Translations under genes and position numbers: made by a program
The notes under the pieces: generated by a model
Seen by the model: only the letters and a program-made list of their open reading frames with translations
Databases searched by the model: none
What the model was told of the DNA's origin: nothing
Source of the DNA: a virus
Virus record (IMG/VR): IMGVR_UViG_3300027710_000057
Location: 1 to 39,857 of that record
Reading direction: 5' to 3' (one strand)
DNA length: 39,857 nucleotides
Part shown: positions 6,828-35,922 of the stretch, in pieces
Position numbering within the stretch: position 1 is the stretch's first letter
Layout of the letters: the number at the start of each line of letters is the position of its first letter

Positions 6828-6836
6828 ATTATAGCA
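6828..6836 (-). promoter_or_regulatory. Extended -10 promoter for sugar operon
   Basis: Minus strand TGC-TATAAT, 27 bases before the TTG start of the CgeB-like gene and just outside the tRNA-Arg gene. No convincing -35 is seen because that position falls inside the tRNA. It could restart transcription after tRNA processing. Confidence 0.5.
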
Positions 6837-6842
6837 TCTTTG

Positions 6843-6915: not shown

Positions 6916-6916
6916 T

Positions 6917-7253: not shown

Positions 7254-7254
7254 A

Positions 7255-22161: not shown

Positions 22162-22383
22162 TTAATTATAGGGGTTTGAGTTGATTTTTACAACTTGTGG
22201 GGGTGTGAGGTTTGTCACATCATCAGGGCTAGTCTTAACTGTGGCATCTTCCCAGCCTAAAAGGATCAGTTCATCAGGATAATCACACACGCAGGTGGGA
22301 GCCTTCTTAAAGTCCTGGGTAGTGACTTCAAAGAGGGTATCACAGTAGGTACAGATAAGATTATACTTAAGCCAGGTAGTCAT
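22162..22383 (-). CDS. Small zinc-ribbon protein
   Basis: 73 residues. LICTYCDTLFEVTTQDFKKA then TCVCDYPDEL: CxxC and CxC pairs give a zinc ribbon, followed by a Pro/Asn-rich tail. The start overlaps the upstream stop (TAATG). Its 3' end covers the -10 and -35 of the downstream promoter. Confidence 0.6.
   Translation of the reverse strand: MTTWLKYNLICTYCDTLFEVTTQDFKKAPTCVCDYPDELILLGWEDATVKTSPDDVTNLTPPQVVKINSNPYN
22165..22193 (-). promoter_or_regulatory. Promoter (TTGTAA-17-TATAAT)
   Basis: Minus strand TTGTAA (22188-22193), 17 bases, TATAAT (22165-22170), for the gene at 22135 and beyond. Confidence 0.7.
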
Positions 22384-22760: not shown

Positions 22761-22789
22761 ATTCTAGCAAAAAATGGGAGAAATATCAA
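22761..22789 (-). promoter_or_regulatory. Type II repeated promoter, leaderless
   Basis: Minus strand TTGATA (22784-22789), 17-base T-rich spacer ending TTTTTTGC, TAGAAT (22761-22766). Shares the string TTTGATATTTCTC...ATTTTTTGC with promoters at 25775 and 26812. Confidence 0.7.
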
Positions 22790-22844
22790 ATCGTTCTTAA
22801 TCGTAAAATGTCCGAATTATGGTGGTTTGGTACGTAATCGTAAT

Positions 22845-22860
22845 TGTGATTTAGGACACA
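22845..22860. promoter_or_regulatory. CRP/GlxR-type palindrome (near-perfect)
   Basis: TGTGATTTAGGACACA, one mismatch from TGTGA-N6-TCACA. Centre about 98 bases upstream of the predicted start at 22754. Confidence 0.5.
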
Positions 22861-22877
22861 TCGTTCGAAAAATCTTG

Positions 22878-22951
22878 CGAAGCGTACGGGACTTGAACCC
22901 GTGATCTCTACCGTGACAGGGTAGCGCATTAACCAACTATGCTAACGCTCC
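22878..22951 (-). tRNA. tRNA-Asp (anticodon GUC)
   Basis: Minus strand: acceptor GGAGCGT with ACGCTTC (one G-T pair), D-arm GCAT-AGTTGGTTA-ATGC, anticodon stem CTACC/GGTAG around CTGTCAC (GUC), T-arm ACGGG-TTCAAGT-CCCGT, discriminator G as in Asp tRNAs. No CCA is encoded. It lies just downstream of the DUF932 gene and is cut from the same transcript or a separate one. Confidence 0.93.
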
Positions 22952-22956
22952 ATGCG

Positions 22957-22977
22957 GAGCAGTTTTAAATCATGCTC
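22957..22977 (-). other. GAGCA/TGCTC hairpin element copy
   Basis: Minus strand GAGCA-loop-TGCTC between the DUF932 stop and tRNA-Asp, preceded by CCT. One of seven copies; no T-run follows here, so it is not a plain terminator. It may guide tRNA processing. Confidence 0.5.
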
Positions 22978-22989
22978 AGGATTTTTTTG

Positions 22990-24009
22990 CTATGCGAGTT
23001 GCATTACATTTTTTACAACTTTGAGCAAACGATTCTTCTCTGCGTTAATTGCAGGGTCAAATCCACTTGCGCTTGCGAGGATAGATTCGTTATTGCCACC
23101 ACGAGCAGAACGATACCAGTCAAGGCGCTCTGTAAGTGCATTGAACGCACCCCACGCATTACCAGCAATCATGCCGTTAAACTCGCCTGTGTAGATATCG
23201 TTAATCATATCCACTTTGGTTTCCCACTTCTTGTTGCTACCCTTAGCGTCCTTCTCAGGCTTTGGGTAAGCAGCGAGAATGATATCATTGAAAGACTTAG
23301 CAGAGACCTCAGTCTCAATCATAGCCTTAGCCATTTTATCAAACTCGTCCATGTACTGATTAGCAAGACCAAGAGTCTCACGAGCAATCTGTACCTTGCC
23401 GTTAGCGGTCTGTGTGTGGCGAATCTTGAATGATTGCTTAGGGCCATTCTTCTTACGACCTACGCCATTGAGCGCAAGGTTAAGAGTATTAGCGCACACA
23501 ACACGAACAGGTGTAATGCTTGCTTGAATAGCGATTGAGCCATCATGTGAGGTGTTAATGAGAAGATAAGTCTTTACCTTATCTGCAACACCGCTAGGGT
23601 CAAGAACAGTCTCACGCTCTAGTGCTAATGCACCGAACACAACACGCCCACCCTTGATAGAGCCAGCGGTTTCCCAACGACCACCGCCGTCAAGAATGTT
23701 ATCACCGAATGAAAATAGGTCTTCATTCTGCAATACATGGTATCGCTCACCTACAACACCAAGAACATCTGTCTGTGTGTTATCGGTAGGATTGGTACGC
23801 AAAACATATTGGTATGCCTTGTCGCTTGTTAAGTGTGCAGGGATAGGCATATCTTCAAGACGAACATTCCAACCATTGAGGTTTGCAGCCTCTAACATTT
23901 CTGCGGTGGTTTTTTCTTCTGTGAATACAGTACCCAATCCATGCCATGCGGGTTCACGGAAAGAAGCAAAAGATGTTTTTCCGTTTTGTGTTTCTAGGTC
24001 ATGTGCCAT
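22990..24009 (-). CDS. DUF932 phage/plasmid-like protein
   Basis: 339 residues, near the usual family length. EPAWHGLGTVF near the start is a signature of the DUF932 (TIGR03299-type) family; VLGVVGERYHVLQNEDLFSF, GRVVFGALAL and ASITPVRVVCANTLNLAL follow in the expected order, with KIRHTQTANGKVQIARETLG later. These proteins are encoded by many phages and plasmids and are often supposed to modulate DNA transactions, but the function is not established. The operon has a type I promoter, a CRP-type site and DnaA boxes upstream. Confidence 0.92.
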   Translation of the reverse strand: MAHDLETQNGKTSFASFREPAWHGLGTVFTEEKTTAEMLEAANLNGWNVRLEDMPIPAHLTSDKAYQYVLRTNPTDNTQTDVLGVVGERYHVLQNEDLFSFGDNILDGGGRWETAGSIKGGRVVFGALALERETVLDPSGVADKVKTYLLINTSHDGSIAIQASITPVRVVCANTLNLALNGVGRKKNGPKQSFKIRHTQTANGKVQIARETLGLANQYMDEFDKMAKAMIETEVSAKSFNDIILAAYPKPEKDAKGSNKKWETKVDMINDIYTGEFNGMIAGNAWGAFNALTERLDWYRSARGGNNESILASASGFDPAINAEKNRLLKVVKNVMQLA

Positions 24010-24041
24010 GAGTTTTCTCCTTTTGTTTGTTGATACTTCTA

Positions 24042-24070
24042 ATCATACACCCACGGACTGACAAATGCAA
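24042..24070 (-). promoter_or_regulatory. Type I repeated promoter (TGTCAG-N10-TATGAT)
   Basis: Minus strand TGTCAG (24058-24063), exactly 10 bases, TATGAT (24042-24047); TTGCAT at 24065-24070 is a possible -35 with 17-base spacing. Drives DUF932. Confidence 0.65.
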
Positions 24071-24093
24071 ATCAGGCTAGTTAGATATGGGAT

Positions 24094-24107
24094 AAATCGG
24101 ACATTCC
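24094..24107 (+). repeat. CGGACATT box
   Basis: AAATCGGACATTCC. Similar boxes (AAATCGGACATTT or AAAACGGACATTT) occur at 26867, 28280, 30796, 31869 and 36427, each in an intergenic region. Inverse form AATGTCCGAATT at 22808. Confidence 0.6.
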
Positions 24108-24111
24108 TTAA

Positions 24112-24127
24112 TGTGACTAAAATCACG
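24112..24127. promoter_or_regulatory. CRP/GlxR-type palindrome (near-perfect)
   Basis: TGTGACTAAAATCACG, one mismatch. Centre about 84 bases upstream of the predicted DUF932 start of transcription. Confidence 0.55.
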
Positions 24128-24151
24128 GGATCTTAAACGGCGTGTCGTAAC

Positions 24152-24172
24152 TTATCCACAGAGTTATCCACA
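24152..24172 (+). promoter_or_regulatory. Pair of DnaA boxes
   Basis: Two perfect TTATCCACA boxes at 24152-24160 and 24164-24172, 12 bases apart, upstream of the DUF932 promoter. Confidence 0.7.
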
Positions 24173-24182
24173 GGCGGGTCGA

Positions 24183-24217
24183 AAAAAGTAGTGAGCCGTT
24201 TACATGGACAATGCTCA
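24183..24217 (-). terminator. Terminator of the 24269 gene
   Basis: Minus strand TGAGC-loop-GCTCA followed after 4 bases by TTTTTT then CGACC. One member of the seven-copy hairpin family. Confidence 0.6.
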
Positions 24218-24268
24218 GGTCCCTTACCCAGTTTAAAGACGTGTGGCAGGTCTTGCATTCATAGCCCC

Positions 24269-24730
24269 CTATGAAATATTATCTTCCGCCTGAATTGAAC
24301 GTGTGTCAACGTTGAAGTCATCAATTGAATAATCAAATGAGTCAACACTGAACTCAAGCCCATTCGCAACATCGTCTGCATCAACATCAAATGGAACTTC
24401 TAGTTCAATTTCAAAATCAACTGTTGCTGTAATTGTAACAGTCTTAGTTAATTCAAAGTCACAAATCTCAGCAAGCGCTTCTGCAACTTCTGCGCTAATG
24501 GTTCCATCACGCACTGCATCAACTACGTAGTTTTTAATTGAGTTCATGACTTCTTGGTGTGCACGACGTTCTGTAAAAAGATTTTGTGAATGTTCTGATG
24601 AACGGTCCTGCAATGAAATAATCAATGCATCCTTCTTCTCAATTGCTTCTTGCAATGCAGCAATCTGACGCTCAAGAAACTCTCGTGTCATATAGTATTC
24701 GTTTGTTAGTGTTGGCTTTGTGTGGTCCAT
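24269..24730 (-). CDS. Hypothetical coiled-coil + beta protein
   Basis: 153 residues. Residues about 15-55 form a coiled coil (FLERQIAALQEAIEKKDALI), then a helical hairpin and a beta-rich tail (TKTVTITATVDFEIELEVPF) ending acidic. The layout resembles small proteins seen in actinophages, but no function is known. It is a single-gene unit with its own type I promoter and terminator. Confidence 0.7.
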   Translation of the reverse strand: MDHTKPTLTNEYYMTREFLERQIAALQEAIEKKDALIISLQDRSSEHSQNLFTERRAHQEVMNSIKNYVVDAVRDGTISAEVAEALAEICDFELTKTVTITATVDFEIELEVPFDVDADDVANGLEFSVDSFDYSIDDFNVDTRSIQAEDNIS

Positions 24731-24760
24731 GGGGGCCTCTTTCTATTGGTTATTAATATA

Positions 24761-24790
24761 AGTATAGCAATGGCCACTGACAAATGCCAA
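24761..24790 (-). promoter_or_regulatory. Type I repeated promoter
   Basis: Minus strand TGTCAG (24777-24782), 10 bases, TATACT (24761-24766) with TGC extension; TTGGCA at 24785-24790 could be -35. Confidence 0.7.
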
Positions 24791-24829
24791 TCCAGATGCC
24801 AGAGATCTTAAATAATGAGACTTAATGCC

Positions 24830-24845
24830 TGTGAGAAATATCACA
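24830..24845. promoter_or_regulatory. CRP/GlxR-type palindrome (perfect)
   Basis: TGTGAGAAATATCACA, matching TGTGA-N6-TCACA in full. Centre about 83 bases upstream of the predicted start of the 24269 transcript. Confidence 0.65.
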
Positions 24846-24851
24846 TGGATC

Positions 24852-24884
24852 GAAAAAAATGTGAGCAGTTTTGGCACTTGCTCA
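24852..24884 (-). terminator. Terminator of the 25016 gene
   Basis: Minus strand TGAGCA (rc 24879-24884), a loop, TGCTCA (rc 24862-24867), then ACATTTTTTTCG: a 6-bp stem followed by a seven-T run. Part of the repeated hairpin family. Confidence 0.7.
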
Positions 24885-24967
24885 GGTGGTCTGCGTCTTT
24901 AGGTCGGCAGTAACCTTGCTCTAGAGTATTTCTATAATCGCCCTCATCAGCCTGGCGAATTATTGTG

Positions 24968-24988
24968 GAGCAGTTTTACTTCATGCTC
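24968..24988 (-). other. GAGCA/TGCTC hairpin element copy
   Basis: Minus strand GAGCA-TGAAGTAAAAC-TGCTC with no T-run; 27 bases after the 25016 stop. The space between this and 24884 (about 80 bases) has no start codon-led gene. Confidence 0.45.
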
Positions 24989-25015
24989 AGGAAGTTGTAT
25001 CCCCGTTGTTGGGAA

Positions 25016-25441
25016 TTATAGGTAGCGAGCCACCGCATTATATGTGGAAGTATTTACAACTTCCTCGTCGGTCATCTTTAGAATACGGATTGCGTTTGAG
25101 AGTTCCTCACGCTTTTCCTTGTATTCATATTGGCTCATTGTAACGAAATCCTTTTCAGGACAGGTTGGCAACTCTGACTCTGAAACTGTTAGGTCAAAGT
25201 CAATGTTAAGTTGGTTGTTCCAAGAACGATAAGATGTGCGGAAGTTTTCTGCATTTTCAATATGCTTAACTGCATAAGCAACGAGTTCCTTCTTATACTT
25301 ATCGTGCAACTTCTGCCAGTTTGCTTCGTGGGCTTCTTGTGTTGTGTAGTCAAGTTCTAGTTTGGCGAGTGCGCCCTCTAGTGCGTTGATTACCTTTACT
25401 GTTGCGATTTTTACTGATATTGCTTTTCCTCTTGTTGCCAT
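25016..25441 (-). CDS. Hypothetical helical protein
   Basis: 141 residues from MATRGKAISVKIATVKVINA at 25441; the longer frame upstream covers the leader and hairpin. Charged helices (KLHDKYKKELVAYAVKHIEN, EKREELSNAIRILKMTDEEV), one CP motif. Weak Shine-Dalgarno AAAGAGA. I do not recognise a family. Confidence 0.65.
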   Translation of the reverse strand: MATRGKAISVKIATVKVINALEGALAKLELDYTTQEAHEANWQKLHDKYKKELVAYAVKHIENAENFRTSYRSWNNQLNIDFDLTVSESELPTCPEKDFVTMSQYEYKEKREELSNAIRILKMTDEEVVNTSTYNAVARYL

Positions 25442-25487
25442 TTGTTTATCTCTTTTCTTTGGTGGGTATATTTTAGGGGGTTTGGTT

Positions 25488-25508
25488 GAGCCTTTTTGCA
25501 ACTTGCTC
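25488..25508 (-). other. GAGC/GCTC hairpin element in leader
   Basis: Minus strand GAGCAAGTTGCAAAAAGGCTC, 4-bp stem, in the 5' leader of the 25441 gene. It lies about 47-67 bases before the ATG. No strong promoter is seen between it and the upstream gene apart from a weak TATAAA near 25530. Confidence 0.4.
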
Positions 25509-25560
25509 AGGTTGGTTCTCGCCCCTTATTTATAGTGCCTGTACGACCGACACTTGCTAA

Positions 25561-25725
25561 CTACTTGTTAGTCCAAGTTGTGTAGCGTGTGTTACCATCT
25601 ACATCTAACTTGACTCGGACATTACCATTTGCCAATGGCTTGATTTCCTGAATTGTGCCTGTGACCTTTGACTTCTGTGAAGTGTATGTGTCGCCGACCT
25701 TGTAAGTTGCTGTTGATACTGCCAT
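25561..25725 (-). CDS. Small beta-barrel-like protein
   Basis: 54 residues starting MAVSTATYKVGDTYTSQKSK, then VTGTIQEIKPLANGNVRVKL: five short strands suggest an SH3/KOW-like fold. AAGGAGAAACACAAC precedes the ATG. First gene of an operon with a type II promoter and a perfect CRP-type site. Likely binds nucleic acid or protein; unproven. Confidence 0.6.
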   Translation of the reverse strand: MAVSTATYKVGDTYTSQKSKVTGTIQEIKPLANGNVRVKLDVDGNTRYTTWTNK

Positions 25726-25774
25726 GTTGTGTTTCTCCTTATTAGTAGTTGGAAGCATTTTTGCTTATGTATTA

Positions 25775-25803
25775 AGTGTAGCAAAAAATCTAAGAAATAT
25801 CAA
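25775..25803 (-). promoter_or_regulatory. Type II repeated promoter
   Basis: Minus strand TTGATA (25798-25803), 17 bases ending TTTTTTGC, TACACT (25775-25780), with extended TGC. Nearly the same upstream string as the promoters at 22761 and 26812. Confidence 0.7.
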
Positions 25804-25843
25804 ATCATTTCCCTAGATTTCTCATATTTTGAGACGATTTCTG

Positions 25844-25859
25844 TGTGATTTAGGTCACA
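25844..25859. promoter_or_regulatory. CRP/GlxR-type palindrome (perfect)
   Basis: TGTGATTTAGGTCACA. Centre about 83 bases upstream of the predicted start of transcription for 25725. Confidence 0.65.
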
Positions 25860-25862
25860 CGC

Positions 25863-25928
25863 CTAGTGTCCCGAACCCGCTATGGCTAAGATAGTGAGTA
25901 ATAGGGCTATTAGATATAGCATTTCCAT
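25863..25928 (-). CDS. 21-residue TM peptide downstream of Gp88
   Basis: MEMLYLIALLLTILAIAGSG ending H. AGGGG lies 5 bases before the ATG, beginning right after the Gp88 stop, so it is translationally tied to it. Comparable to the 18-residue TM peptide at 28404. Confidence 0.45.
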   Translation of the reverse strand: MEMLYLIALLLTILAIAGSGH

Positions 25929-25937
25929 TTAGACCCC

Positions 25938-26660
25938 TCATTTTTTGGTTGCACTAAACACTATATCAGATTTTCCATAAATACACAAACCGCAAGATAC
26001 GCAAGCGCTACCACTTTGAGAGATAAGTGGGATAGCCTTTTTATTCTCAGGGCATTTAGCCCCAGGGCGGTTAGTGAGTTCCTTCATGTCTGATTGTCCT
26101 AGTGCAAAGTTTTTTGCAAGGTATGCAAGGCGTATCCCATGATCTGTTTTGAGTCCGATACCTATTGCCTTATTCTCACTATCTGTTGAATAGTATAGTG
26201 AGAGATTAGGTTGGTCTTTAAGCATTACCGCTGCCGATTCAACACGGGTATAAACCCAGAATTGTACATGGCGATAATCCATGATTACTTGCTTCCATGC
26301 ATATGCATATGTATCGCTAAAGAAATCTCCGTCCCAGTGGATACGGAATAGCAAGGGTGCGTCTTTCTTTGCACAGTCCTTGATAAAGTCAACTATCATT
26401 TCTTTAAGTAGTGCGACCATAGTTTCATAGTCTGCGTCTTTAAGTAAATCCCAGTTATGGAGTAGGTTAGTCTTTACTCCTGGGAATATCTTTTCCAATT
26501 TGCCTGCATAGCAAACAGTCTCACAGACAGTCGTTGCGCCAGGACATGAATAGTTTTTTCCTGCGGGTAGTCCGAATGTATTAGCAATACTTGCTTGTTT
26601 TCCGTTAGGTGTGACGGCATTAGTTACTTTCCTATCTTTGGAGCGTAGTAGTTTAGTCAT
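25938..26660 (-). CDS. Gp88-like phage protein (Cys-rich)
   Basis: 240 residues. IANTFGLPAGKNYSCPGATT and VCETVCYAGKLEKIFPGV give Cys-rich motifs near the N-terminus, RIHWDGDFFSDTYAYAWKQV in the middle and GAKCPENKKAIPLIS, ACVSCGLCIYG at the end. These match the 'gene product 88' family of mycobacteriophages. The cysteines, arranged like Fe-S ligands, hint at a redox or radical enzyme, but the biochemistry is unknown. Type I promoter upstream, overlapping the preceding micro-gene. Confidence 0.85.
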   Translation of the reverse strand: MTKLLRSKDRKVTNAVTPNGKQASIANTFGLPAGKNYSCPGATTVCETVCYAGKLEKIFPGVKTNLLHNWDLLKDADYETMVALLKEMIVDFIKDCAKKDAPLLFRIHWDGDFFSDTYAYAWKQVIMDYRHVQFWVYTRVESAAVMLKDQPNLSLYYSTDSENKAIGIGLKTDHGIRLAYLAKNFALGQSDMKELTNRPGAKCPENKKAIPLISQSGSACVSCGLCIYGKSDIVFSATKK

Positions 26661-26805
26661 TGATTGACCTTCTTTCTTTTCTTAATTCTAGCATTTGGGA
26701 CTGACATTTTTTTCTATCGTATTTCTTTTTATTTGGCACGGCAGAGGCTGCATTGCTACGGCGTAGTTCCATAAGCCTGCGTAATTCCTCTGGTGTTTTT
26801 TTCAT
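26653..26805 (-). CDS. Leaderless basic 50-residue protein
   Basis: MKKTPEELRRLMELRRSNAA then NKKKYDRKKCQSQMLELRKE: strongly basic and helical, likely nucleic-acid binding. ATG begins 7 bases past TATGAT. The stop overlaps the Gp88 start by 8 bases, and the Gp88 promoter lies inside it. Confidence 0.6.
   Translation of the reverse strand: MKKTPEELRRLMELRRSNAASAVPNKKKYDRKKCQSQMLELRKERRSIND
26685..26706 (-). promoter_or_regulatory. Type I repeated promoter for Gp88-like gene
   Basis: Minus strand TGTCAG (26701-26706), 10 bases, TAGAAT (26685-26690) with TGC extension. No CRP-type site at the usual distance because it is inside a gene. Confidence 0.6.
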
Positions 26806-26811
26806 ACCTTA

Positions 26812-26840
26812 ATCATACCAAAAATCTTAAAAAATATCAA
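26812..26840 (-). promoter_or_regulatory. Type II repeated promoter, leaderless
   Basis: Minus strand TTGATA (26835-26840), 17 bases, TATGAT (26812-26817), then 6 bases and ATG. An AAAACGGACATTTGG box follows upstream at 26867-26881. Confidence 0.7.
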
Positions 26841-26892
26841 ATCCAGGGTATAGGGAGAGTCTGCGTAAAACGGACATTTGGGACGGCGGGTC

Positions 26893-26917
26893 GAAAAATC
26901 TTGGGGGGAAGCCCAAG
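26893..26917 (-). terminator. Terminator of the 26919-28205 operon
   Basis: Minus strand CTTGGG-CTTCCC-CCCAAG stem, then ATTTTTCGACC. It begins 2 bases after the stop of the gene at 26919. Confidence 0.75.
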
Positions 26918-26918
26918 A

Positions 26919-27164
26919 CTATTCATCATCTCTATCTACAAACACATAGAGTTTAAACATCTCTTCATGTGTGCAGAAGTATTCTTCTTCCTCGCCATAT
27001 TCATTACGATGAGTGATTACATAGTTATCACCAGTAGCATCATCAGCAATCGCAATTACCTCTACAATATCCATATCAATATTGATCAAGTCACCCTCCA
27101 TTAACTGGCTTGGTGTGAGTAGGTCTGCATATACTAGTTCCATGTTTGCTATTGTAGCAGTCAT
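26919..27164 (-). CDS. Small beta-rich acidic protein
   Basis: 81 residues: MTATIANMELVYADLLTPSQ, DLINIDMDIVEVIAIADDAT, DNYVITHRNEYGEEEEYFCT. Alternating strands suggest a small barrel. Last gene of a seven-gene operon; ATGA overlap upstream. Unknown function. Confidence 0.65.
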   Translation of the reverse strand: MTATIANMELVYADLLTPSQLMEGDLINIDMDIVEVIAIADDATGDNYVITHRNEYGEEEEYFCTHEEMFKLYVFVDRDDE

Positions 27165-27289
27165 TTTATAGCCTCCACTATTACGTCGTCATATCCCAGT
27201 TCAATCATTTCTTGAGCCCAGTACTCTGCATCTTGTCTAGTTAGGTAGTTAGAATTTAATTCGCTACCGCCAACCCATAAGGAATACAT
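27161..27289 (-). CDS. 42-residue hypothetical protein
   Basis: MYSLWVGGSELNSNYLTRQD then AEYWAQEMIELGYDDVIVEA: beta strand, helix, strand, like a DUF of the sort 'edit-distance' small phage proteins. ATGA and TAATG overlaps on both sides give good support. Confidence 0.6.
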   Translation of the reverse strand: MYSLWVGGSELNSNYLTRQDAEYWAQEMIELGYDDVIVEAIK

Positions 27290-27627
27290 TATTCCCCCTC
27301 ATCATATTCTAATGATAGTGGAAAGTCATCTGACCTGTCCTCCCAGTCATCTACTGAGTCAATGAATACCTGAAGGTGGTGTTGCTCCACGATAGCCCAA
27401 GCAGGTGCGACTGTTGAATTCTTGTAGAGAATCTGAAAGTCACCCACCTTTGGCATATCAATCATGCGGTCATAGTCCTCATCATAGTAGGCATCAATAG
27501 CCTCAATGCAGGGAGTTACCATTTCTGCGGGGACAGGTGGATAGTGATTACCTTTAAGGTGATAGAGAATCTGAGTCTCCAAGTCCAAGACTGTATCCTG
27601 AATTCCTAGTGCTGTAATTGTTCCCAT
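27289..27627 (-). CDS. Hypothetical protein
   Basis: 112 residues from MGTITALGIQDTVLDLETQI at 27627, with upstream frame discarded as antisense to the operon's own preceding gene. VTPCIEAIDAYYDEDYDRMI is acidic helix, followed by strands. TAATG with the downstream gene; start overlaps the upstream stop. Confidence 0.65.
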   Translation of the reverse strand: MGTITALGIQDTVLDLETQILYHLKGNHYPPVPAEMVTPCIEAIDAYYDEDYDRMIDMPKVGDFQILYKNSTVAPAWAIVEQHHLQVFIDSVDDWEDRSDDFPLSLEYDEGE

Positions 27628-27842
27628 TATGCGACCACCTTTACTGTTCCGTTGCGATAAAATAACTTTGTATAGCATTTGCCTGTTGGCGTGTATAGAT
27701 TAACTGTGCGGTATTCATTAGCCATACCCCAGTCGGTGAATAGGAAAAAGTTTTCCCATGCGCCATATTCTTTCTCATAGCGTTGTGTCCAATGAGGTGC
27801 TTCTCCGTCATAGGCACTTGTGATTACATATTCATAGTCCAT
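27627..27842 (-). CDS. Hypothetical protein
   Basis: 71 residues from MDYEYVITSAYDGEAPHWTQ; aromatic-rich alpha/beta with C-terminal strand (LFYRNGTVKVVA). Start fixed by TAATG overlap with the upstream micro-gene. No family recognised. Confidence 0.6.
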   Translation of the reverse strand: MDYEYVITSAYDGEAPHWTQRYEKEYGAWENFFLFTDWGMANEYRTVNLYTPTGKCYTKLFYRNGTVKVVA

Positions 27843-27940
27843 TAGTATTGCTCCTTCTCGCAAGAACGACATAGTGTGTTGGTGGTACATGAGCAGTTAG
27901 ATACTGTCATGAGTATTTCATTATCAAAATCACGATACAT
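27842..27940 (-). CDS. 32-residue cysteine micro-protein
   Basis: NCSCTTNTLCRSCEKEQY holds CxC and CxxC, a mini zinc site, after a short acidic start. TAATG at both ends. Confidence 0.55.
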   Translation of the reverse strand: MYRDFDNEILMTVSNCSCTTNTLCRSCEKEQY

Positions 27941-28089
27941 TATTTAGCCTCCGCTGTTAAAAATAGTGAGTTAATTTCATCTGAGTATTGCATACTTTCT
28001 GCAAGCATTTCTAGTGAGCAGTGTGAGCAGTAAATTTCTAATACATCTACTGAGTTTTCATTACACTTCATGCAAGTATATTCGGTCAT
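27940..28089 (-). CDS. Small zinc-ribbon protein
   Basis: 49 residues: YTCMKCNENSVDVLEIYCSH then CSLEMLAESMQYSDEIN; CxxC at 6-9 and CxxC at 21-24, a complete ribbon with a helical tail. TAATG overlaps at both ends. Confidence 0.65.
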   Translation of the reverse strand: MTEYTCMKCNENSVDVLEIYCSHCSLEMLAESMQYSDEINSLFLTAEAK

Positions 28090-28205
28090 TAGTTGCCTTC
28101 TTTCTTTGGTGTAGTATCTACCTTACCAGCAAGGACTGACATGGCGAGGGTTGTGTTTGCCTTGCGTGTAGCGAGGACATGGGCTTTGTATTCTTCTAGG
28201 TTCAT
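28089..28205 (-). CDS. 38-residue helical protein, operon leader
   Basis: MNLEEYKAHVLATRKANTTL then AMSVLAGKVDTTPKKEGN. AGAAGG Shine-Dalgarno upstream. First gene after a type I promoter. Function unknown. Confidence 0.55.
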   Translation of the reverse strand: MNLEEYKAHVLATRKANTTLAMSVLAGKVDTTPKKEGN

Positions 28206-28236
28206 ATGAGACCTTCTTTCTTAAGTTGATATAAAT

Positions 28237-28258
28237 ATCCTATCATTTATGACTGACA
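28237..28258 (-). promoter_or_regulatory. Type I repeated promoter (TGTCAG-N10-TAGGAT)
   Basis: Minus strand TGTCAG (28253-28258), 10 bases, TAGGAT (28237-28242) with TGA extension. Confidence 0.6.
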
Positions 28259-28279
28259 TTCTCAAATCCTTAAAGGTAT

Positions 28280-28312
28280 AAATCGGACATTCGGAATGTG
28301 ATAAATCTCACA
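28280..28312. promoter_or_regulatory. GACATT box plus perfect CRP/GlxR-type palindrome
   Basis: AAATCGGACATTCGG at 28280-28294 abuts TGTGATAAATCTCACA at 28297-28312. The palindrome's centre lies about 74 bases upstream of the predicted start for the 28205 operon. Confidence 0.65.
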
Positions 28313-28321
28313 CGTAAAGCC

Positions 28322-28351
28322 TGTGGATAACTTAATGGTGGTTGTGGATAA
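28322..28351 (-). promoter_or_regulatory. Pair of DnaA boxes
   Basis: TGTGGATAA at 28322-28330 and 28343-28351 (inverse of TTATCCACA), 21 bases apart, the only pair not spaced by 12. Confidence 0.7.
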
Positions 28352-28361
28352 CTGCGGGTCG

Positions 28362-28393
28362 AAAAAAATTTGAACAGTTTTACATCGTGTTCA
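28362..28393 (-). terminator. Terminator with covarying stem
   Basis: Minus strand TGAACA-loop-TGTTCA then AATTTTTTTCGACC. The G-C pair of other copies (GAGCA/TGCTC) is replaced by A-T here on both arms, so base pairing is maintained. Confidence 0.7.
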
Positions 28394-28403
28394 GGATGAT
28401 CCG

Positions 28404-28460
28404 TTAGGAGCCGCTAATCAGAAGGACCGTTAGCAAAGTAAGAACTGCAATTGTTATCAT
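28404..28460 (-). CDS. 18-residue TM peptide
   Basis: MITIAVLTLLTVLLISGS: one hydrophobic helix. ATGA overlap with the upstream gene. Too short to be sure, but similar to the Gp88-coupled TM peptide. Confidence 0.4.
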   Translation of the reverse strand: MITIAVLTLLTVLLISGS

Positions 28461-28612
28461 CGGTTCAATAACCTCTCTGCTCTCAGCAATGCTTTTAGCG
28501 CTTTGTTTTGTTTTCTTAGGTCAACATTTTCTGCAATTGTGTAAACCATTACAAGACATGATGTTGATAGTGCAATTCCAATTGCGATAATTGTTCCAGT
28601 ATCTAGTGTCAT
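28457..28612 (-). CDS. 51-residue single-TM protein
   Basis: MTLDTGTIIAIGIALSTSCL forms a TM helix, followed by AENVDLRKQNKALKALLRAE, a basic amphipathic helix on the inside. ATGA overlaps on both sides. Confidence 0.6.
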   Translation of the reverse strand: MTLDTGTIIAIGIALSTSCLVMVYTIAENVDLRKQNKALKALLRAERLLNR

Positions 28613-28776
28613 TTGTTGCAAGCCTCTCTAAACTTATCTAATTTGAAATTAGGATTATCAGCAGAAAACATATCCGCAAACTCATCTACCAAGTCCTCAA
28701 ATGTAAATTGGTCTGCTATCAGAGGTTTGAAGTCAGATAGGATTTCTGCAACTGCTACGTAGTCTTTACGTGTCAT
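28609..28776 (-). CDS. 55-residue hypothetical protein
   Basis: MTRKDYVAVAEILSDFKPLI then FTFEDLVDEFADMFSADNPN and FKLDKFREACNK. The MTRKDY ... NPNF-x-x-x-KF-x-x-AC layout recurs in many actinophage small proteins as I recall; function unknown. An ATG one codon earlier is possible. Confidence 0.65.
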   Translation of the reverse strand: MTRKDYVAVAEILSDFKPLIADQFTFEDLVDEFADMFSADNPNFKLDKFREACNK

Positions 28777-28781
28777 CATTG

Positions 28782-29036
28782 TTATTCACCTGCCAATTCT
28801 AGAAACATTTCTGTGCCCCCGTCATTGATGTGTGCAATTACTGCCTGTAACTCTTCAAGTGAAGTTGTTTCTTCAATATTGATAAGTTCATCAACGGCAT
28901 CTCGGTTCATCTGAATGAATACATCACCGATTAGCATGATTTGTGGAAGGTAGCGAGAAGTTTCTGCAACCTTTGAAACGAAATTAATTCCCTTATGTGT
29001 GAATGGGAATGTAGCGAATTTGATTGTCTGTGTCAT
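28782..29036 (-). CDS. Hypothetical protein
   Basis: 84 residues; strands FATFPFTHKGINFVSKVAET and IMLIGDVFIQMNRD suggest a small beta-sheet, then a helix (SLEELQAVIAHINDGG). AAAGAAGAAC precedes the ATG. No family recognised. Confidence 0.6.
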   Translation of the reverse strand: MTQTIKFATFPFTHKGINFVSKVAETSRYLPQIMLIGDVFIQMNRDAVDELINIEETTSLEELQAVIAHINDGGTEMFLELAGE

Positions 29037-29054
29037 TGTCTGTTCTTCTTTCTT

Positions 29055-29156
29055 TTAGTTATTTGTTTGGCATTTGCATTTTGTTATTTTAATTGTATCG
29101 CCTACCACTGACACGCTGGCCAGTGTTGAGCAATTATCACATAGATAGATGTGCAT
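29055..29156 (-). CDS. 33-residue zinc-ribbon micro-protein
   Basis: MHIYLCDNCSTLASVSVVGD then TIKITKCKCQTNN: CxxC at 6-9 and CxC at 27-29. TAATG overlap with the upstream gene. Confidence 0.55.
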   Translation of the reverse strand: MHIYLCDNCSTLASVSVVGDTIKITKCKCQTNN

Positions 29157-29317
29157 TAGTCCACGCACCCATCACATTGAGAGTAAGGGTCAAACTCGCA
29201 GAACTGGCAACCCATGAACTCGCTACAAGTTTTGCAATAGTAGCGGAACTGGTGTTCATCACAACACACGAACGCCTGTTCTGAGATATCATAGAACTCT
29301 GTTTGGTCAATAAACAT
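29156..29317 (-). CDS. Cysteine-rich 53-residue protein
   Basis: Nine cysteines: FVCCDEHQFRYYCKTCSEFM, GCQFCEFDPYSQ, CDGCVD. Likely binds two zinc ions in a B-box or RING-like cross-brace, which would suit protein-protein contacts. TAATG overlaps on both sides. Confidence 0.65.
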   Translation of the reverse strand: MFIDQTEFYDISEQAFVCCDEHQFRYYCKTCSEFMGCQFCEFDPYSQCDGCVD

Positions 29318-29520
29318 TAGTCACCAACTTTTACTGCAACTGTGCGGTAGTGGTCTTTGTATGAGTGCGGTGTGCGAATCTTTACTAGATAAGTATCGCA
29401 ACCCTCATACCATACCGCATGAGGGTGTGGCTCTGCGGTTACAATTTCACCCTGAAGTGTTGCTGAACGATATTGCTTACCTACCAAGAGGTTCTGAACT
29501 GTGTATACATTTGCTGACAT
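29317..29520 (-). CDS. Small beta-rich protein
   Basis: 67 residues: MSANVYTVQNLLVGKQYRSA, LQGEIVTAEPHPHAVWYEG, TYLVKIRTP. Barrel-like. First gene of its operon under a type I promoter with two CRP-type sites upstream. Confidence 0.6.
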   Translation of the reverse strand: MSANVYTVQNLLVGKQYRSATLQGEIVTAEPHPHAVWYEGCDTYLVKIRTPHSYKDHYRTVAVKVGD

Positions 29521-29554
29521 GGTGTCACCTTCTTTTCTTTTTCTTTATATTTCA

Positions 29555-29576
29555 AGTATAGCATTTTGGTCTGACA
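29555..29576 (-). promoter_or_regulatory. Type I repeated promoter
   Basis: Minus strand TGTCAG (29571-29576), 10 bases, TATACT (29555-29560), TGC extended. Confidence 0.7.
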
Positions 29577-29624
29577 ATTTCACATTACTAGCCAGTAAAT
29601 CCAGATAGTGAGACGCTCAAGGCG

Positions 29625-29640
29625 TGTGATATGTATCACA
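29625..29640. promoter_or_regulatory. CRP/GlxR-type palindrome (perfect)
   Basis: TGTGATATGTATCACA, centre about 84 bases upstream of the predicted start at about 29548. Confidence 0.65.
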
Positions 29641-29705
29641 TCAATTTGCTACTTTATTTAATTGTTATAGTATTAATACTAGCAGATAAACCTTAAAAAG
29701 TCAAA

Positions 29706-29764
29706 CCGACACGCCGTAAATTGGGTGTGATTAAAATCATACTTAATGCAGATCACGACACGCC
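29706..29764. promoter_or_regulatory. Second CRP-type site flanked by CGACACGCC boxes
   Basis: TGTGATTAAAATCATA (29726-29741, near-perfect) lies between CGACACGCCGT at 29707 and CGACACGCC at 29756. CGACACGCC also occurs at 24138 (inverse), 30887 and 32024. Confidence 0.5.
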
Positions 29765-29781
29765 CGAACCCGTCGAAAAAA

Positions 29782-29883
29782 TTATTCGCCTTTCACAAAT
29801 AAATAGAATCCAGTAATTCCACACGCAAGTGAAAACCATAGCAACGCATTACCACTTACAAAAAAAGTTTGATAGAAACTCAT
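29782..29883 (-). CDS. 33-residue single-TM protein
   Basis: MSFYQTFFVSGNALLWFSLA then CGITGFYLFVKGE: one long hydrophobic helix. TAATG overlap with the upstream gene; a T-run followed by CGA lies right after its stop, probably the operon's end. Confidence 0.55.
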   Translation of the reverse strand: MSFYQTFFVSGNALLWFSLACGITGFYLFVKGE

Positions 29884-30029
29884 TACATTCCCCATTCTAA
29901 AAAGTGAAATAAAAAGTTAATTAGAATCTGCAAAGATAGAACAAGGTTTGAAATCTGTTCTGGTGATTCTGCATTATCTAACCAGCCTAGGTACTGGTCA
30001 ATGCTTTCAAATAGTCCTTGAATATTCAT
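29883..30029 (-). CDS. 48-residue hypothetical protein
   Basis: MNIQGLFESIDQYLGWLDNA, ESPEQISNLVLSLQ then ILINFLFHFLEWGM: amphipathic helices with a hydrophobic C-terminus, perhaps membrane associated. ATGA and TAATG overlaps. Confidence 0.55.
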   Translation of the reverse strand: MNIQGLFESIDQYLGWLDNAESPEQISNLVLSLQILINFLFHFLEWGM

Positions 30030-30205
30030 CGGTTTAGTTCCTCATTTTCTCTTAGGTAGTCTGCAAAATCCAGCAGACCTTGGTCATATGCAACAGGGTC
30101 ACACATTTTTAGAACTTGTGAAGGTAGAAACTTGTAGATACCAATTTCAATTTCACCTTGCTCATCTAGCAATTCATTGTAGTATTCTTCAACAGCATTT
30201 ATCAT
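30026..30205 (-). CDS. 59-residue acidic protein
   Basis: MINAVEEYYNELLDEQGEIE then IGIYKFLPSQVLKMCDPVAY and an acidic end (LRENEELNR). Mainly helical. One base separates it from the gene upstream. Confidence 0.6.
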   Translation of the reverse strand: MINAVEEYYNELLDEQGEIEIGIYKFLPSQVLKMCDPVAYDQGLLDFADYLRENEELNR

Positions 30206-30304
30206 TTACTCACCTGCACAATCTACGCAGGTAGCAATTTCATTTTCTGTGAGCCACATTGACTCAATAGGCTCATCACATGAGCGACAGTTAACAGTTA
30301 TCAT
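30206..30304 (-). CDS. 32-residue zinc-ribbon micro-protein
   Basis: MITVNCRSCDEPIESMWLTE then NEIATCVDCAGE: CxxC at 6-9 and 26-29, a complete minimal ribbon with a beta turn between. Weak Shine-Dalgarno. Confidence 0.6.
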   Translation of the reverse strand: MITVNCRSCDEPIESMWLTENEIATCVDCAGE

Positions 30305-30306
30305 TT

Positions 30307-30534
30307 TTATCGGTTCACTTTCTTGAACTCTGAGTAAGGAATCTCTACATTGAGTAGATTCTTGCCGTTAGTGCTAACGGTAGCGTTGCTAATTGTGTAG
30401 CGTTGCAAAACGACATGAGCCATTTTGGTTTCATCATTTATTGAGATGACATTTACTAGTTTGTGATTCACATAGTCTGAATCAGCATTGAAAAAATTGC
30501 CAGCGAACATGGCATTAACGAGAGATAGGTTCAT
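30307..30534 (-). CDS. Small beta-rich protein
   Basis: 75 residues: DSDYVNHKLVNVISINDETK, AHVVLQRYTISNATVS, NLLNVEIPYSEFKKVNR. Strand-rich; a small barrel is likely. ATGA overlap upstream. Confidence 0.6.
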   Translation of the reverse strand: MNLSLVNAMFAGNFFNADSDYVNHKLVNVISINDETKMAHVVLQRYTISNATVSTNGKNLLNVEIPYSEFKKVNR

Positions 30535-30713
30535 TTAGACACCTTCCAATCTGACCAACCACTTAGGCGGTCTGAATCAAAATCCATGTAGAAACTTTCT
30601 ACATTTTGTTCACATTCTTCGCAGAATGTATAAGCCACATCATTGTGGAATGAGATAGACTCTTTATGAGCCTTATGAGTAACGCATATTGCGTTATTTG
30701 TTAGTGTAGTCAT
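30531..30713 (-). CDS. Zinc-binding micro-protein, paralogue of 32440 gene
   Basis: 60 residues from MTTLTNNAICVTHKAHKESI at 30713. C9, H12 and YTFCEECEQNVESFY provide zinc ligands; the end SGWSDWKVSK is shared. Aligns along its whole length with the plus-strand gene at 32440 (MTTLT..., C-x2-H, YTFC-x2-CEQN, W-S-x-WKV). First gene under a type I promoter. Confidence 0.7.
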   Translation of the reverse strand: MTTLTNNAICVTHKAHKESISFHNDVAYTFCEECEQNVESFYMDFDSDRLSGWSDWKVSK

Positions 30714-30760
30714 ATTGACCACCTTTCTTGTTGAAACCTTTTCAACCTTGTATATATACA

Positions 30761-30782
30761 AGTATAACAGGGGGGTCTGACA
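30761..30782 (-). promoter_or_regulatory. Type I repeated promoter
   Basis: Minus strand TGTCAG (30777-30782), 10 bases (ACCCCCCTGT), TATACT (30761-30766). Almost identical over the spacer to the promoter at 31824. Confidence 0.7.
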
Positions 30783-30795
30783 TTTTGAGGGGTAC

Positions 30796-30838
30796 AAATC
30801 GGACATTTAGGAAATAAGGGATTGTGATATAGACCACA
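30796..30838. promoter_or_regulatory. GACATT box plus near-perfect CRP-type site
   Basis: AAATCGGACATTTAGG at 30796-30811 and TGTGATATAGACCACA at 30823-30838 (one mismatch). Centre about 76 bases upstream of the predicted start. Confidence 0.55.
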
Positions 30839-30925
30839 TTTTCATGTCTGACTGGTCAAATTGTGGTCATTTCCAAAGATTTTTTGCGACACGCCGTATT
30901 TGAACTTGACAAGATCGAACGTTCG

Positions 30926-30950
30926 AAAAAAATATGCACCGAAGTGCATA
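30926..30950 (-). terminator. Strong terminator with UUCG tetraloop
   Basis: Minus strand TATGCAC-TTCG-GTGCATA, perfect 7-bp stem with a UUCG loop, then TTTTTTT and CGAA. Starts 5 bases after the stop of the gene at 30956. Confidence 0.9.
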
Positions 30951-30955
30951 CTTAT

Positions 30956-31051
30956 TTACTTATCAAAAATCTTTAGCAACTCTTCACATTGTTCATCAGT
31001 TAAATGTTCAATGCTAATTGCTTTTTGAAATAAGTCAGTGATTTCATTCAT
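30956..31051 (-). CDS. 31-residue acidic helical peptide
   Basis: MNEITDLFQKAISIEHLTDE then QCEELLKIFDK. TAATG overlap upstream and a strong terminator directly downstream, so it is the last gene of the operon. Confidence 0.55.
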   Translation of the reverse strand: MNEITDLFQKAISIEHLTDEQCEELLKIFDK

Positions 31052-31197
31052 TATTGAACCTCCTCAATATGGAACGCATCAAACTTAGCAATTTCATCCT
31101 CGCTAAGTGGATAGAGTGATTTGTTTAGAGCGAATACCGCTCTCATTTCATCTTCTGCCTCTACGACATAAGAAATAAGTACATTGTATTTAGTCAT
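31051..31197 (-). CDS. Small alpha/beta protein
   Basis: 48 residues from MTKYNVLISYVVEAEDEMRA: strand, helix, then ALNKSLYPLSEDEIAKFDAF. Similar start to the genes at 21956 and 21202, suggesting a repeated small fold. TAATG junctions at both ends. Confidence 0.6.
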   Translation of the reverse strand: MTKYNVLISYVVEAEDEMRAVFALNKSLYPLSEDEIAKFDAFHIEEVQ

Positions 31198-31373
31198 TAG
31201 TTTTTTCCTTTCAAGTGACCTGATATTCCTAGAGTATCGCAAGATACCTGCAACACTACCGACTTAGGTAGTGCATTACTTAGTGCGCTGATATATGTAC
31301 GCACATCTGACGGGGTATTAAAGGCTAGTGCCTTAGTAGTACCATTGAATGAAGTTAGTTTAAGCGTTATCAT
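31197..31373 (-). CDS. Small protein, paralogue of 32889 gene
   Basis: 58 residues: MITLKLTSFNGTTKALAFNT, PSDVRTYISALSN, VVLQVSCDTLGISGHLKG. Shares the start (I-T-L ... T-S), the V-x-V-x-C-D-x-L-G-I-x-G-x-L-x-G end and length with the plus-strand gene at 32889. Alpha/beta mini-domain of unknown function. Confidence 0.65.
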   Translation of the reverse strand: MITLKLTSFNGTTKALAFNTPSDVRTYISALSNALPKSVVLQVSCDTLGISGHLKGKN

Positions 31374-31537
31374 TACTTAACCCCCTTATAGAGAAAATCC
31401 CACGCCTTACGGCAAATCATTATGCTTTCGCAATTATCACAGCAGATAGAGCCATGAGGATTTAGGTTTAAGTCATATGAATCTACATATGACACGGACT
31501 TACCGCACACAGACGGCATTGAATATAGGGTACTCAT
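31373..31537 (-). CDS. Cysteine-containing 54-residue protein
   Basis: MSTLYSMPSVCGKSVSYVDS ... HGSICCDNCESIMICRKAW: cysteines at 11 and a C-C-x2-C...C cluster near 32-42, a plausible zinc site. TAATG overlaps at both ends. Confidence 0.6.
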   Translation of the reverse strand: MSTLYSMPSVCGKSVSYVDSYDLNLNPHGSICCDNCESIMICRKAWDFLYKGVK

Positions 31538-31773
31538 TATTTAGTACCACCTTTCTTTAGAACGGACATGATAGCGACATATCGCTGAGCGATTACTACC
31601 GCTTTAGGGTTAAGGGTAGAGTTGAATCTACCTTGTGAGAAATCGCTAGGGTATTTGTTAGCAATACGCTGAGCGATACGGATAGGGAGAGCATATGTAT
31701 GAGGTGCATATCCTGCACTCTCTAAGCCAAACTCTATGGCTATATCCTTACGGATTTCGTTATAGTGAGTCAT
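31537..31773 (-). CDS. Hypothetical helical protein, operon leader
   Basis: 78 residues: MTHYNEIRKDIAIEFGLESA, LPIRIAQRIANKYPSDFSQG, PKAVVIAQRYVAIMSVLKKG. Helical and basic. The first gene leftward from the divergent control region. A nucleic-acid-binding role is possible but not shown. Confidence 0.6.
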   Translation of the reverse strand: MTHYNEIRKDIAIEFGLESAGYAPHTYALPIRIAQRIANKYPSDFSQGRFNSTLNPKAVVIAQRYVAIMSVLKKGGTK

Positions 31774-31823
31774 GATTGACTCCTTTCTTTATTGATAACC
31801 TTTATCAACTTTCTATACATAGA

Positions 31824-31845
31824 AGTATAGCAGGGGGGTCTGACA
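31824..31845 (-). promoter_or_regulatory. Type I repeated promoter
   Basis: Minus strand TGTCAG (31840-31845), 10 bases (ACCCCCCTGC), TATACT (31824-31829), TGC extended. Confidence 0.7.
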
Positions 31846-31868
31846 AATGGACTTGGACATTATGGGCG

Positions 31869-31903
31869 AAATCGGACATTTGGGATATGTGATTAAACTC
31901 ACA
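31869..31903. promoter_or_regulatory. GACATT box plus perfect CRP/GlxR-type palindrome
   Basis: AAATCGGACATTTGGG (31869-31884) followed by TGTGATTAAACTCACA (31888-31903). Centre about 78 bases upstream of the leftward start. Confidence 0.65.
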
Positions 31904-31912
31904 TTTCTAAGT

Positions 31913-31964
31913 ATGACTGGTCATGGGTTGGGTAGCCTAAGCAGGGTAGCCTATGACTGGTCAT
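31913..31964. repeat. Twin ATGACTGGTCAT inverted repeats with tandem core
   Basis: ATGAC-TG-GTCAT at 31913-31924 and 31953-31964; between them GGGTAGCCTAAGCA and GGGTAGCCTATGA are direct repeats. TGACTGGTCA also occurs at 30849. Looks like operator DNA. Confidence 0.6.
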
Positions 31965-31984
31965 GTGGATAACCCTGTGGATAA
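31964..31984 (-). promoter_or_regulatory. Pair of DnaA boxes
   Basis: TGTGGATAA at 31964-31972 and 31976-31984, 12 bases apart, in the divergent control region. Confidence 0.7.
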
Positions 31985-32005
31985 CTTTTTGTCGACCAAA
32001 ATTTT

Positions 32006-32021
32006 TGTGGTCTAAATCACA
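32006..32021. promoter_or_regulatory. CRP/GlxR-type palindrome (near-perfect) for rightward promoter
   Basis: TGTGGTCTAAATCACA, one mismatch. Centre about 64 bases upstream of the rightward start near 32078, close to the class I CRP position. Confidence 0.55.
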
Positions 32022-32042
32022 TCCGACACGCCGTGTTTGGAC

Positions 32043-32071
32043 TTGACTTTTTGACATTTCTATGCTATACT
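32043..32071 (+). promoter_or_regulatory. Rightward consensus promoter
   Basis: TTGACT (32043-32048), 17 bases, TGC-TATACT (-10 at 32066-32071). It drives the plus-strand operon beginning at 32120. Confidence 0.85.
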
Positions 32072-32119: not shown

Positions 32120-32326
32120 ATGATTACATTAAACATTACTCCAGAGGCCGATTGGTCTATTTCATGCGGTGACGATTACTGCGACGGATACGGTTGCGAT
32201 ATCCACTCAGACTATCAGGGTGAGGCTTGTGAGGTCACAGGTTGCACCTCTCCAGTGTCTTCCTATCTAGTAGAGGTAGAGGGTATGGCCATGGATATGT
32301 GCCACTACCACTACAATGTGGGCTAA
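32120..32326 (+). CDS. Cysteine/aspartate-rich 68-residue protein
   Basis: MITLNITPEADWSISCGDDY, CDGYGCDIHSDYQ, EACEVTGCTSPVSSYLVEVE, MDMCHYHYNVG. Six cysteines and several histidines suggest one or two metal sites. AAAGAAAGGTAG precedes the ATG. First gene of the rightward operon. Confidence 0.65.
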   Translation: MITLNITPEADWSISCGDDYCDGYGCDIHSDYQGEACEVTGCTSPVSSYLVEVEGMAMDMCHYHYNVG

Positions 32327-32372
32327 GTCACATGGCCCACGCTCCACATAGTGAGACTACTAGCCAGTATAC

Positions 32373-32401
32373 TTGACAGTACGGCTTTTATCTGTTAGAC
32401 T
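32373..32401 (+). promoter_or_regulatory. Promoter (TTGACA-17-TAGACT)
   Basis: TTGACA (32373-32378), 17 bases, TAGACT (32396-32401) in the 113-base gap before the 32440 gene. A TATACT at 32368-32373 overlaps its -35. Confidence 0.65.
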
Positions 32402-32439: not shown

Positions 32440-32625
32440 ATGACTACATTAACAACTACAGTATGCACAGTGCATACACCTCAAATGTCCGCTATCTCTA
32501 CTATCTCAAACATGGCGTTTGATGAACAGTACACTTTCTGCACAACTTGTGAGCAGAACATAGAGCGTTGGGCTGATATAGACAACCCATACTCTTCATG
32601 GTCTAAGTGGAAAGTTACACAGTAA
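32440..32625 (+). CDS. Zinc-binding micro-protein, paralogue of 30531 gene
   Basis: 61 residues: MTTLTTTVCTVHTPQMSAIS, YTFCTTCEQNIERWADIDNP, SSWSKWKVTQ. C9, H12 and CxxC provide ligands. AGAAAGGTGG Shine-Dalgarno. It is the opposite-strand copy of the 30531 gene, about 1.7 kb away in mirror position around the divergent promoter region. Confidence 0.7.
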   Translation: MTTLTTTVCTVHTPQMSAISTISNMAFDEQYTFCTTCEQNIERWADIDNPYSSWSKWKVTQ

Positions 32626-35725: not shown

Positions 35726-35922
35726 TACCATTTCCCTACTGGACAGGAAGCCTTGTCAATCAAAGTCTTCAACTTCATAAAGCAGCCACATTTCTTACAA
35801 CTTAAATTTCCTTTACGAAAGAACTCACAGCCCTTACATATAGCCAAACGCTCTGCTGCTATCTCTTCAGGTGCTCTAGGAGATCCGTTAATCAAATCCC
35901 AAGGCTTTGCATCTTTACTCAT
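35725..35922 (-). CDS. DUF6171-like cysteine-rich protein, leaderless
   Basis: 65 residues from MSKDAKPWDLINGSPRAPEE. ICKGCEFFRKGNLSCKKCGC, FMKLKTLIDKASCPVGKW: six cysteines in the layout CxxC...CxxCGC-M...CP-x-GKW, which I associate with the small DUF6171 family. It probably binds two metals. The ATG is 6 bases past a TATAAT (35929-35934 on minus), so it is leaderless. Confidence 0.7.
   Translation of the reverse strand: MSKDAKPWDLINGSPRAPEEIAAERLAICKGCEFFRKGNLSCKKCGCFMKLKTLIDKASCPVGKW

Follow-up and report, generated by a model that had tools for sequence, protein, structure and literature searches.

GlxR of Corynebacterium glutamicum recognizes the palindrome TGTGA-N6-TCACA (PMC7999487), which is also the palindrome of Escherichia coli CRP, and the Crp of Mycobacterium tuberculosis (Rv3676) has a similar one (PMC4117774). 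In M. tuberculosis, upstream binding of Crp goes with activation, and the sites cluster at −60 to −40 (PMC4117774). Here we describe a set of such palindromes, predicted to be Crp/GlxR operators, in a phage genome fragment from the IMG/VR collection (IMGVR_UViG_3300027710_000057). The fragment is a linear virus record of 39,857 bases with 38% G+C, and this whole stretch is what we call the window. Its sites resemble those of GlxR and Rv3676 in the palindrome, in the upstream position, and in that the candidate host order has an orthologue of these regulators, but they are phage borne and promoter phased and lie mostly at −64.5 to −85 rather than at −60 to −40.

Two systems in which a host regulator acts on phage promoters are also close. 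Cyanophage Pho boxes are bound by the host PhoB, and 7 of the 14 up-regulated genes of one such phage have a putative Pho box (PMC10976474). There, as predicted here, lytic phage genes come under a host nutrient-response regulator; the present set differs in that a single operator recurs with fixed geometry at many operons in the same region, throughout a phage family. In phage T1, host CRP acts directly on the pir, dam, and recE promoters (PMC6737242), but this control by cyclic AMP (cAMP)-CRP is repression, in E. coli, at few promoters. Within the openly accessible literature, a scope outside which most subscription journals fall, we found no CRP/GlxR sites in actinophages. T1 and the Pho boxes are precedents for host regulators acting at phage promoters; this literature yielded no Crp/GlxR operator set that is phased and shared across a family on early-type operons of actinophages.

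A pattern search of the window found six perfect TGTGA-N6-TCACA palindromes and six sites with one mismatch, all within 22.2 to 32.3 kb. Between 22.0 and 33.3 kb (6 perfect sites, 12 at ≤1 mismatch; no site of either kind in the remaining 28.6 kb), 300 dinucleotide shuffles gave means of 0.03 and 0.61 and maxima of 1 and 4, respectively, which bears out the excess over chance claimed in a sequence-only reading of the window. All ten sites listed by that reading are present where it placed them, but it missed the perfect site at 22204 and the one-mismatch site at 32317. Its statement that the sites are only intergenic holds for those ten and is slightly too strong, because both missed sites touch open reading frames (ORFs). 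For every one of the 12 sites, a sigma70-like promoter puts the site center at −53.5 to −98.5, as measured from the center to the start predicted by three explicit promoter patterns. The distances given earlier agree with these patterns, and the earlier naming of small-gene operons as the targets of the site set is supported. The sites and promoters are as follows.

22204 to 22219: perfect site TGTGAGGTTTGTCACA, inside the 3′ part of the ORF at 22162 to 22383; −53.5 from a promoter at 22165 to 22193 (minus strand)
22845 to 22860: one-mismatch site TGTGATTTAGGACACA, adjoining a tRNA-Asp gene; −98.5 from TTGATA-N17-TAGAAT (22761 to 22789, minus strand)
24112 to 24127: one-mismatch site, upstream of the DUF932 gene (22990 to 24009, minus strand); −84.5 from a TGTCAG promoter
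24042 to 24063, minus strand: TGTCAG-N10-TAnnnT promoter of the DUF932 gene
24830 to 24845: perfect site TGTGAGAAATATCACA, upstream of the ORF at 24269 to 24730 (minus strand); −83.5
24761 to 24782, minus strand: TGTCAG-N10-TATACT promoter
25844 to 25859: perfect site TGTGATTTAGGTCACA, upstream of the ORF at 25561 to 25758 (minus strand); −83.5 from TTGATA-N17-TACACT (25775 to 25803, minus strand)
28297 to 28312: perfect site TGTGATAAATCTCACA; −74.5
28237 to 28258, minus strand: TGTCAG-N10-TAGGAT promoter
29625 to 29640: perfect site TGTGATATGTATCACA, upstream of the ORF at 29317 to 29520 (minus strand); −84.5
29555 to 29576, minus strand: TGTCAG-N10-TATACT promoter
29726 to 29741: one-mismatch site, second in the intergenic region of the 29625 site; −64.5 from TTGACT-N17-TAGTAT (29676 to 29704, minus strand)
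30823 to 30838: one-mismatch site TGTGATATAGACCACA, upstream of the ORF at 30531 to 30806 (minus strand); −76.5
30761 to 30782, minus strand: TGTCAG-N10-TATACT promoter
31888 to 31903: perfect site TGTGATTAAACTCACA, upstream of the ORF at 31537 to 31773 (minus strand); −78.5
31824 to 31845, minus strand: TGTCAG-N10-TATACT promoter
32006 to 32021: one-mismatch site TGTGGTCTAAATCACA, serving a divergent plus-strand promoter; −64.5 from TTGACT-N17-TATACT
32043 to 32071, plus strand: TTGACT-N17-TATACT promoter of the ORF at 32120 to 32326
32317 to 32332: one-mismatch site TGTGGGCTAAGTCACA, overlapping the end of the ORF at 32120 to 32326; −83.5 from TTGACA-N17-TAGACT
32373 to 32401, plus strand: TTGACA-N17-TAGACT promoter of the ORF at 32440 to 32625

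The palindrome is conserved in related phages, a check that the sequence-only reading had proposed. Relatives of the window's DUF932 protein are encoded by 436 viral stretches, the best 80 of which formed our first set; a second set of 80 loci was fetched with a different DUF932 protein, and both sets carry the palindrome. In the first, TGTGA is by far more frequent than any other 5-6-5 palindrome (339 copies versus 53 for the next), with no copy at a spacer of 5 and a single copy at a spacer of 7. The second holds 242 nonredundant sites, 194 of them not in the first. The logo of both sets reads TGTGA-[not A]-N-W-W-N-[not T]-TCACA, and about 88% of the sites have A/T at N6 positions 3 and 4, that is, a TA-like center. 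By motif, spacing, and this center, the palindromes are predicted Crp/GlxR operators, and by motif the earlier assignment to the CRP/GlxR type stands. In 14 contigs of 80 to 119 kb, perfect sites are confined to one stretch (split over both contig ends in two records), and in relatives, as many as 8 perfect sites fall within some 10 kb. Chance origin of the palindromes is ruled out by the palindrome counts in both sets together with the window shuffles. An RNA hairpin or terminator was rejected by reasoning, as the half-sites are fixed in sequence and a stem would tolerate compensatory changes.

The operator region has counterparts in Streptomyces phages. The DUF932 and GP88-family genes of the window have 46 to 55% identical relatives in the Stanwilliamsviridae, Boydwoodruffvirinae (such as NootNoot, MindFlayer, and EGole), and the gene order DUF932 ... 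GP88 near the left end is common to both groups. In the Streptomyces-phage relatives, the DUF932 gene is found at both genome ends (paired loci, e.g., L191/L192), and the region is thus doubled; the operator region is therefore the counterpart of a long terminal repeat. Because of this homology to a terminal repeat, the small-gene operons are probably early host-takeover genes. The 16 Streptomyces-phage loci differ in having neither TGTGA-N6-TCACA nor TGTCAG-N7-TGn-TAnnnT promoters, and the operators are therefore a feature of the freshwater lineage.

Two main core promoter types accompany the sites. The first consists of a TGTCAG box, 10 nt, and an extended −10 (TGnTAnnnT), with no −35; the second is TTGACW or TTGATA, N17, and TAnnnT. 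A perfect palindrome lies within 200 bp upstream of 177 of the 533 nonredundant TGTCAG promoters, compared to 0 to 1 for each of 29 letter permutations. In four relatives, TGTCAG promoter matches lie in or adjoin the operator region, and genomes from the candidate host order contain the pattern only at chance level. The fuller form AWTGTCAG, 7 nt, TGn, TAnnnT, seen on the minus strand at 24042 to 31845 of the window (e.g., 31824 to 31845) and in relatives L005 to L084, is a phage-specific promoter type, and its TGTCAG box 10 nt from the −10 is reminiscent of the MotA-box promoters of T4. We dropped the idea that the Streptomyces relatives have the same promoter boxes, as their TGTCCG copies are mostly on the other strand and have no promoter.

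To calculate phasing, we grouped promoters by downstream gene family and counted each family-distance pair once. For TGTCAG promoters, sites are most frequent at distances of −64.5, −74.5, and −84.5 (±1) from the promoter. Among periods of 6 to 20 bp, the best is 10.25 bp for perfect sites (n = 39; Rayleigh P of about 4 × 10−7) and 10.5 bp for sites with ≤1 mismatch (n = 76; P of about 5 × 10−13), and the phasing is replicated in second-set promoters absent from the first set (n = 51, P of about 4 × 10−7; n = 84, P of about 3 × 10−10), all P values being indicative only because of residual relatedness. None of 5,000 random sets was as good as the observed phasing. Within a gene family, sites shift by about 10 or 20 bp (−64.5, −74.5, −84.5/−85.5). 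The TTGACW-N17 promoters, defined without the TGTCAG box and not collapsed by gene family, have sites at −53.5, −64.5, and −74.5, with an R of 0.84 to 0.89 at 10.5 bp. The phasing proposed in the sequence-only reading is imperfect in the window alone (−76.5 and −78.5) but clear across the relatives, after gene-family collapsing and again in the second set. The sites also lie on one helical face several turns upstream with a 10.5-bp period, as at class I CRP promoters of E. coli, where the activator position shows the same periodicity (PMC6301791); a difference is that in many of the promoters here, a TGTCAG box replaces the −35.

We looked for the binder on both the phage and host sides. The CRP-type helix-turn-helix (HTH) domain (PF13545) was found in none of 14 phage relatives, while the same search matched in 14 of 14 control genomes, in keeping with the earlier appeal to a host protein. 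In a Pfam scan of 122 ORFs from a relative with 8 sites (G004), WhiB was the only transcription-factor domain among the matches listed, and one further HTH match was subthreshold. Of 15 records, 12 encode WhiB, a mark of actinophages; it is absent from the window fragment. The host would be an actinobacterium, as suggested by WhiB and by one genome-collection match, a 4.7-kb contig of an actinobacterial metagenome-assembled genome (MAG). In the candidate host order, genomes are mostly 1.2 to 1.5 Mb, a size that would fit Nanopelagicales, and a Crp orthologue is found in 58 of 61. The best PDB match of an example Crp from this order (L100) is M. tuberculosis Crp (3d0s; 6.5e-77), followed by GlxR (4byy), and the L100 and M. 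tuberculosis proteins have the same SRETVNKALADFA recognition helix. In 198 genomes of the class, the palindrome is clearly more frequent than its reversed control.

Taken together, we consider it probable (roughly 0.68) that a host Crp/GlxR activates these phage promoters in class I fashion from the palindromic operators. A host dimer of the mycobacterial Crp lineage would bind the palindromes at positions whole turns upstream, along the same side of the helix, and would recruit host RNA polymerase to the phage promoters, and the small-gene operons of the terminal-repeat-homologous region would then be more strongly expressed.

Several observations weigh against this activation by host Crp. 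Off-phase sites exist (−69.5, −76.5, and −78.5), and the register of −64.5/−74.5/−84.5 relative to the −10 is 3 to 4 bp further upstream than that of E. coli class I promoters, whose optimum is −61.5, −71.5, and −82.5 (PMC6301791). The Streptomyces relatives lack the sites, although Streptomyces has a Crp as well. The candidate host rests on the one MAG contig and WhiB. In the candidate order, 16 genomes held just 2 perfect sites, with no visible regulon, and the G016 genome has no site with ≤1 mismatch between genes. Finally, the streamlined actinobacteria of this order (61 genomes, the order of G015) retain a Crp of the mycobacterial type, but a search of 26 of their genomes and of 15 phage records turned up no class III adenylate cyclase. 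The earlier suggestion that the operons are switched by cAMP level thus lacks support, and cAMP dependence of the operators in this order is doubtful. Depletion of near-sites in the host was considered and rejected: TGTGA looked to be one of the most depleted palindromes in G016, but it is hardly rarer than the reversed control across 16 genomes (243 versus 268 near-sites). This leaves two possibilities: a different actinobacterium as the true host, or a phage that relies on consensus sites for a Crp with a weak, perhaps cAMP-independent regulon of its own.

The missing host site set would also fit a phage-encoded DNA-binding protein, not recognizably CRP-like, that uses the palindromes as a phage regulon, as activator or as repressor, in the manner of repressor “stoperators.” In most of the small early ORFs no known domain is recognized, and such a binder could be among them. 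We nevertheless regard this as unlikely, as the motif, the spacing, and the central A/T preference are those of Crp/GlxR, 14 relatives lack PF13545, the G004 scan listed no transcription-factor domain besides WhiB and the subthreshold HTH, and the sites almost never lie on the core promoter, unlike repressor operators.

The same positional argument bears on repression or insulation of the promoters by Crp, for which the T1 promoters provide a precedent (PMC6737242). A site that represses would be expected close to the start or downstream of it (PMC4117774), whereas a site with ≤1 mismatch occurs at −50 to 0 in only 3 of the 533 TGTCAG promoters versus 203 at −95 to −50; such a distribution fits an activator bound upstream and not a repressor, and makes such repression improbable. 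Quite improbable, too, is that the sites act as a sponge, pulling Crp off host promoters. Each genome does hold many consensus sites, and in the Streptomyces relatives the corresponding region is present at both ends, but a sponge needs no fixed promoter distance, so the 10.5-bp phasing and promoter association oppose it as the main function, and the candidate order has no visible regulon to titrate. That the palindromes are operators of the NADH sensor Rex is scarcely credible and ruled out by the N6 logo: the outer half-sites are identical and the Rex site TGTGAA-N4-TTCACA also fits TGTGA-N6-TCACA, but Rex needs A at N1 (with T at N6), and N1 is A in only 3 to 5% of nonredundant sites.

The window holds further repeats. 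In the operator intergenic regions, paired TTATCCACA repeats, which are DnaA-box-like, occur at 24151 to 24172, 28325 to 28350, and 31963 to 31988; relatives have about 467 nonredundant copies versus 70 expected, mostly 90 to 140 bp upstream of TGTCAG promoters. The CGACACGCC/GGCGTGTCG repeats at 24138, 29708, 30887, and 32022 (350 versus 30 expected in relatives) often lie at −46 to −54 from TGTCAG promoters and are possibly another operator. Between palindrome and core promoter, a AAATCGGACATT (TGTCCG) box is found at 24093, 26867, 28280, 30796, and 31869, with preferred starts at −51, −60, and −68. The TGACTGGTCA near-palindromes at 30849, 31914, and 31954 lie close to the CRP-type sites 30823 and 31888. 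A repeated hairpin of the TGAGCA ... TGCTCA type (22953 to 22981, 24859 to 24887, 24964 to 24992, and 28368 to 28396), two copies of which are directly followed by T runs on the minus strand, apparently serves as the terminator of small operons.

Elsewhere in the window, glycosyltransferase-like, epimerase-like, and carbamoyltransferase genes (the last with both Pfam domains) are clustered at 1658 to 8937, a cluster for which surface or DNA modification is possible. A DUF6065 gene (33534 to 34286) is followed by a similar tandem copy (34286 to 35023), and proteins resembling this pair are encoded at 35024 to 35731, 8913 to 9590, and 10318 to 11049.

Host regulators on lytic-phage promoters are known in a few cases only, and here at least 150 metagenomic phage contigs share a phased operator architecture in one genome region, with up to a dozen sites upstream of small-gene operons. 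The phasing provides sequence-only evidence for Crp-polymerase geometry in Actinobacteria. More tentatively, and with the odds against it, this family of freshwater actinophages may have based on the single Crp of a streamlined host, one that may work without cAMP, a regulon closer to consensus than any in that host; the takeover genes would then be activated mainly by a Crp with no visible host consensus regulon, together with the phage-specific TGTCAG box. With one protein and a few DNA fragments, it becomes possible to test directly what state of the host is read by these lake phages.

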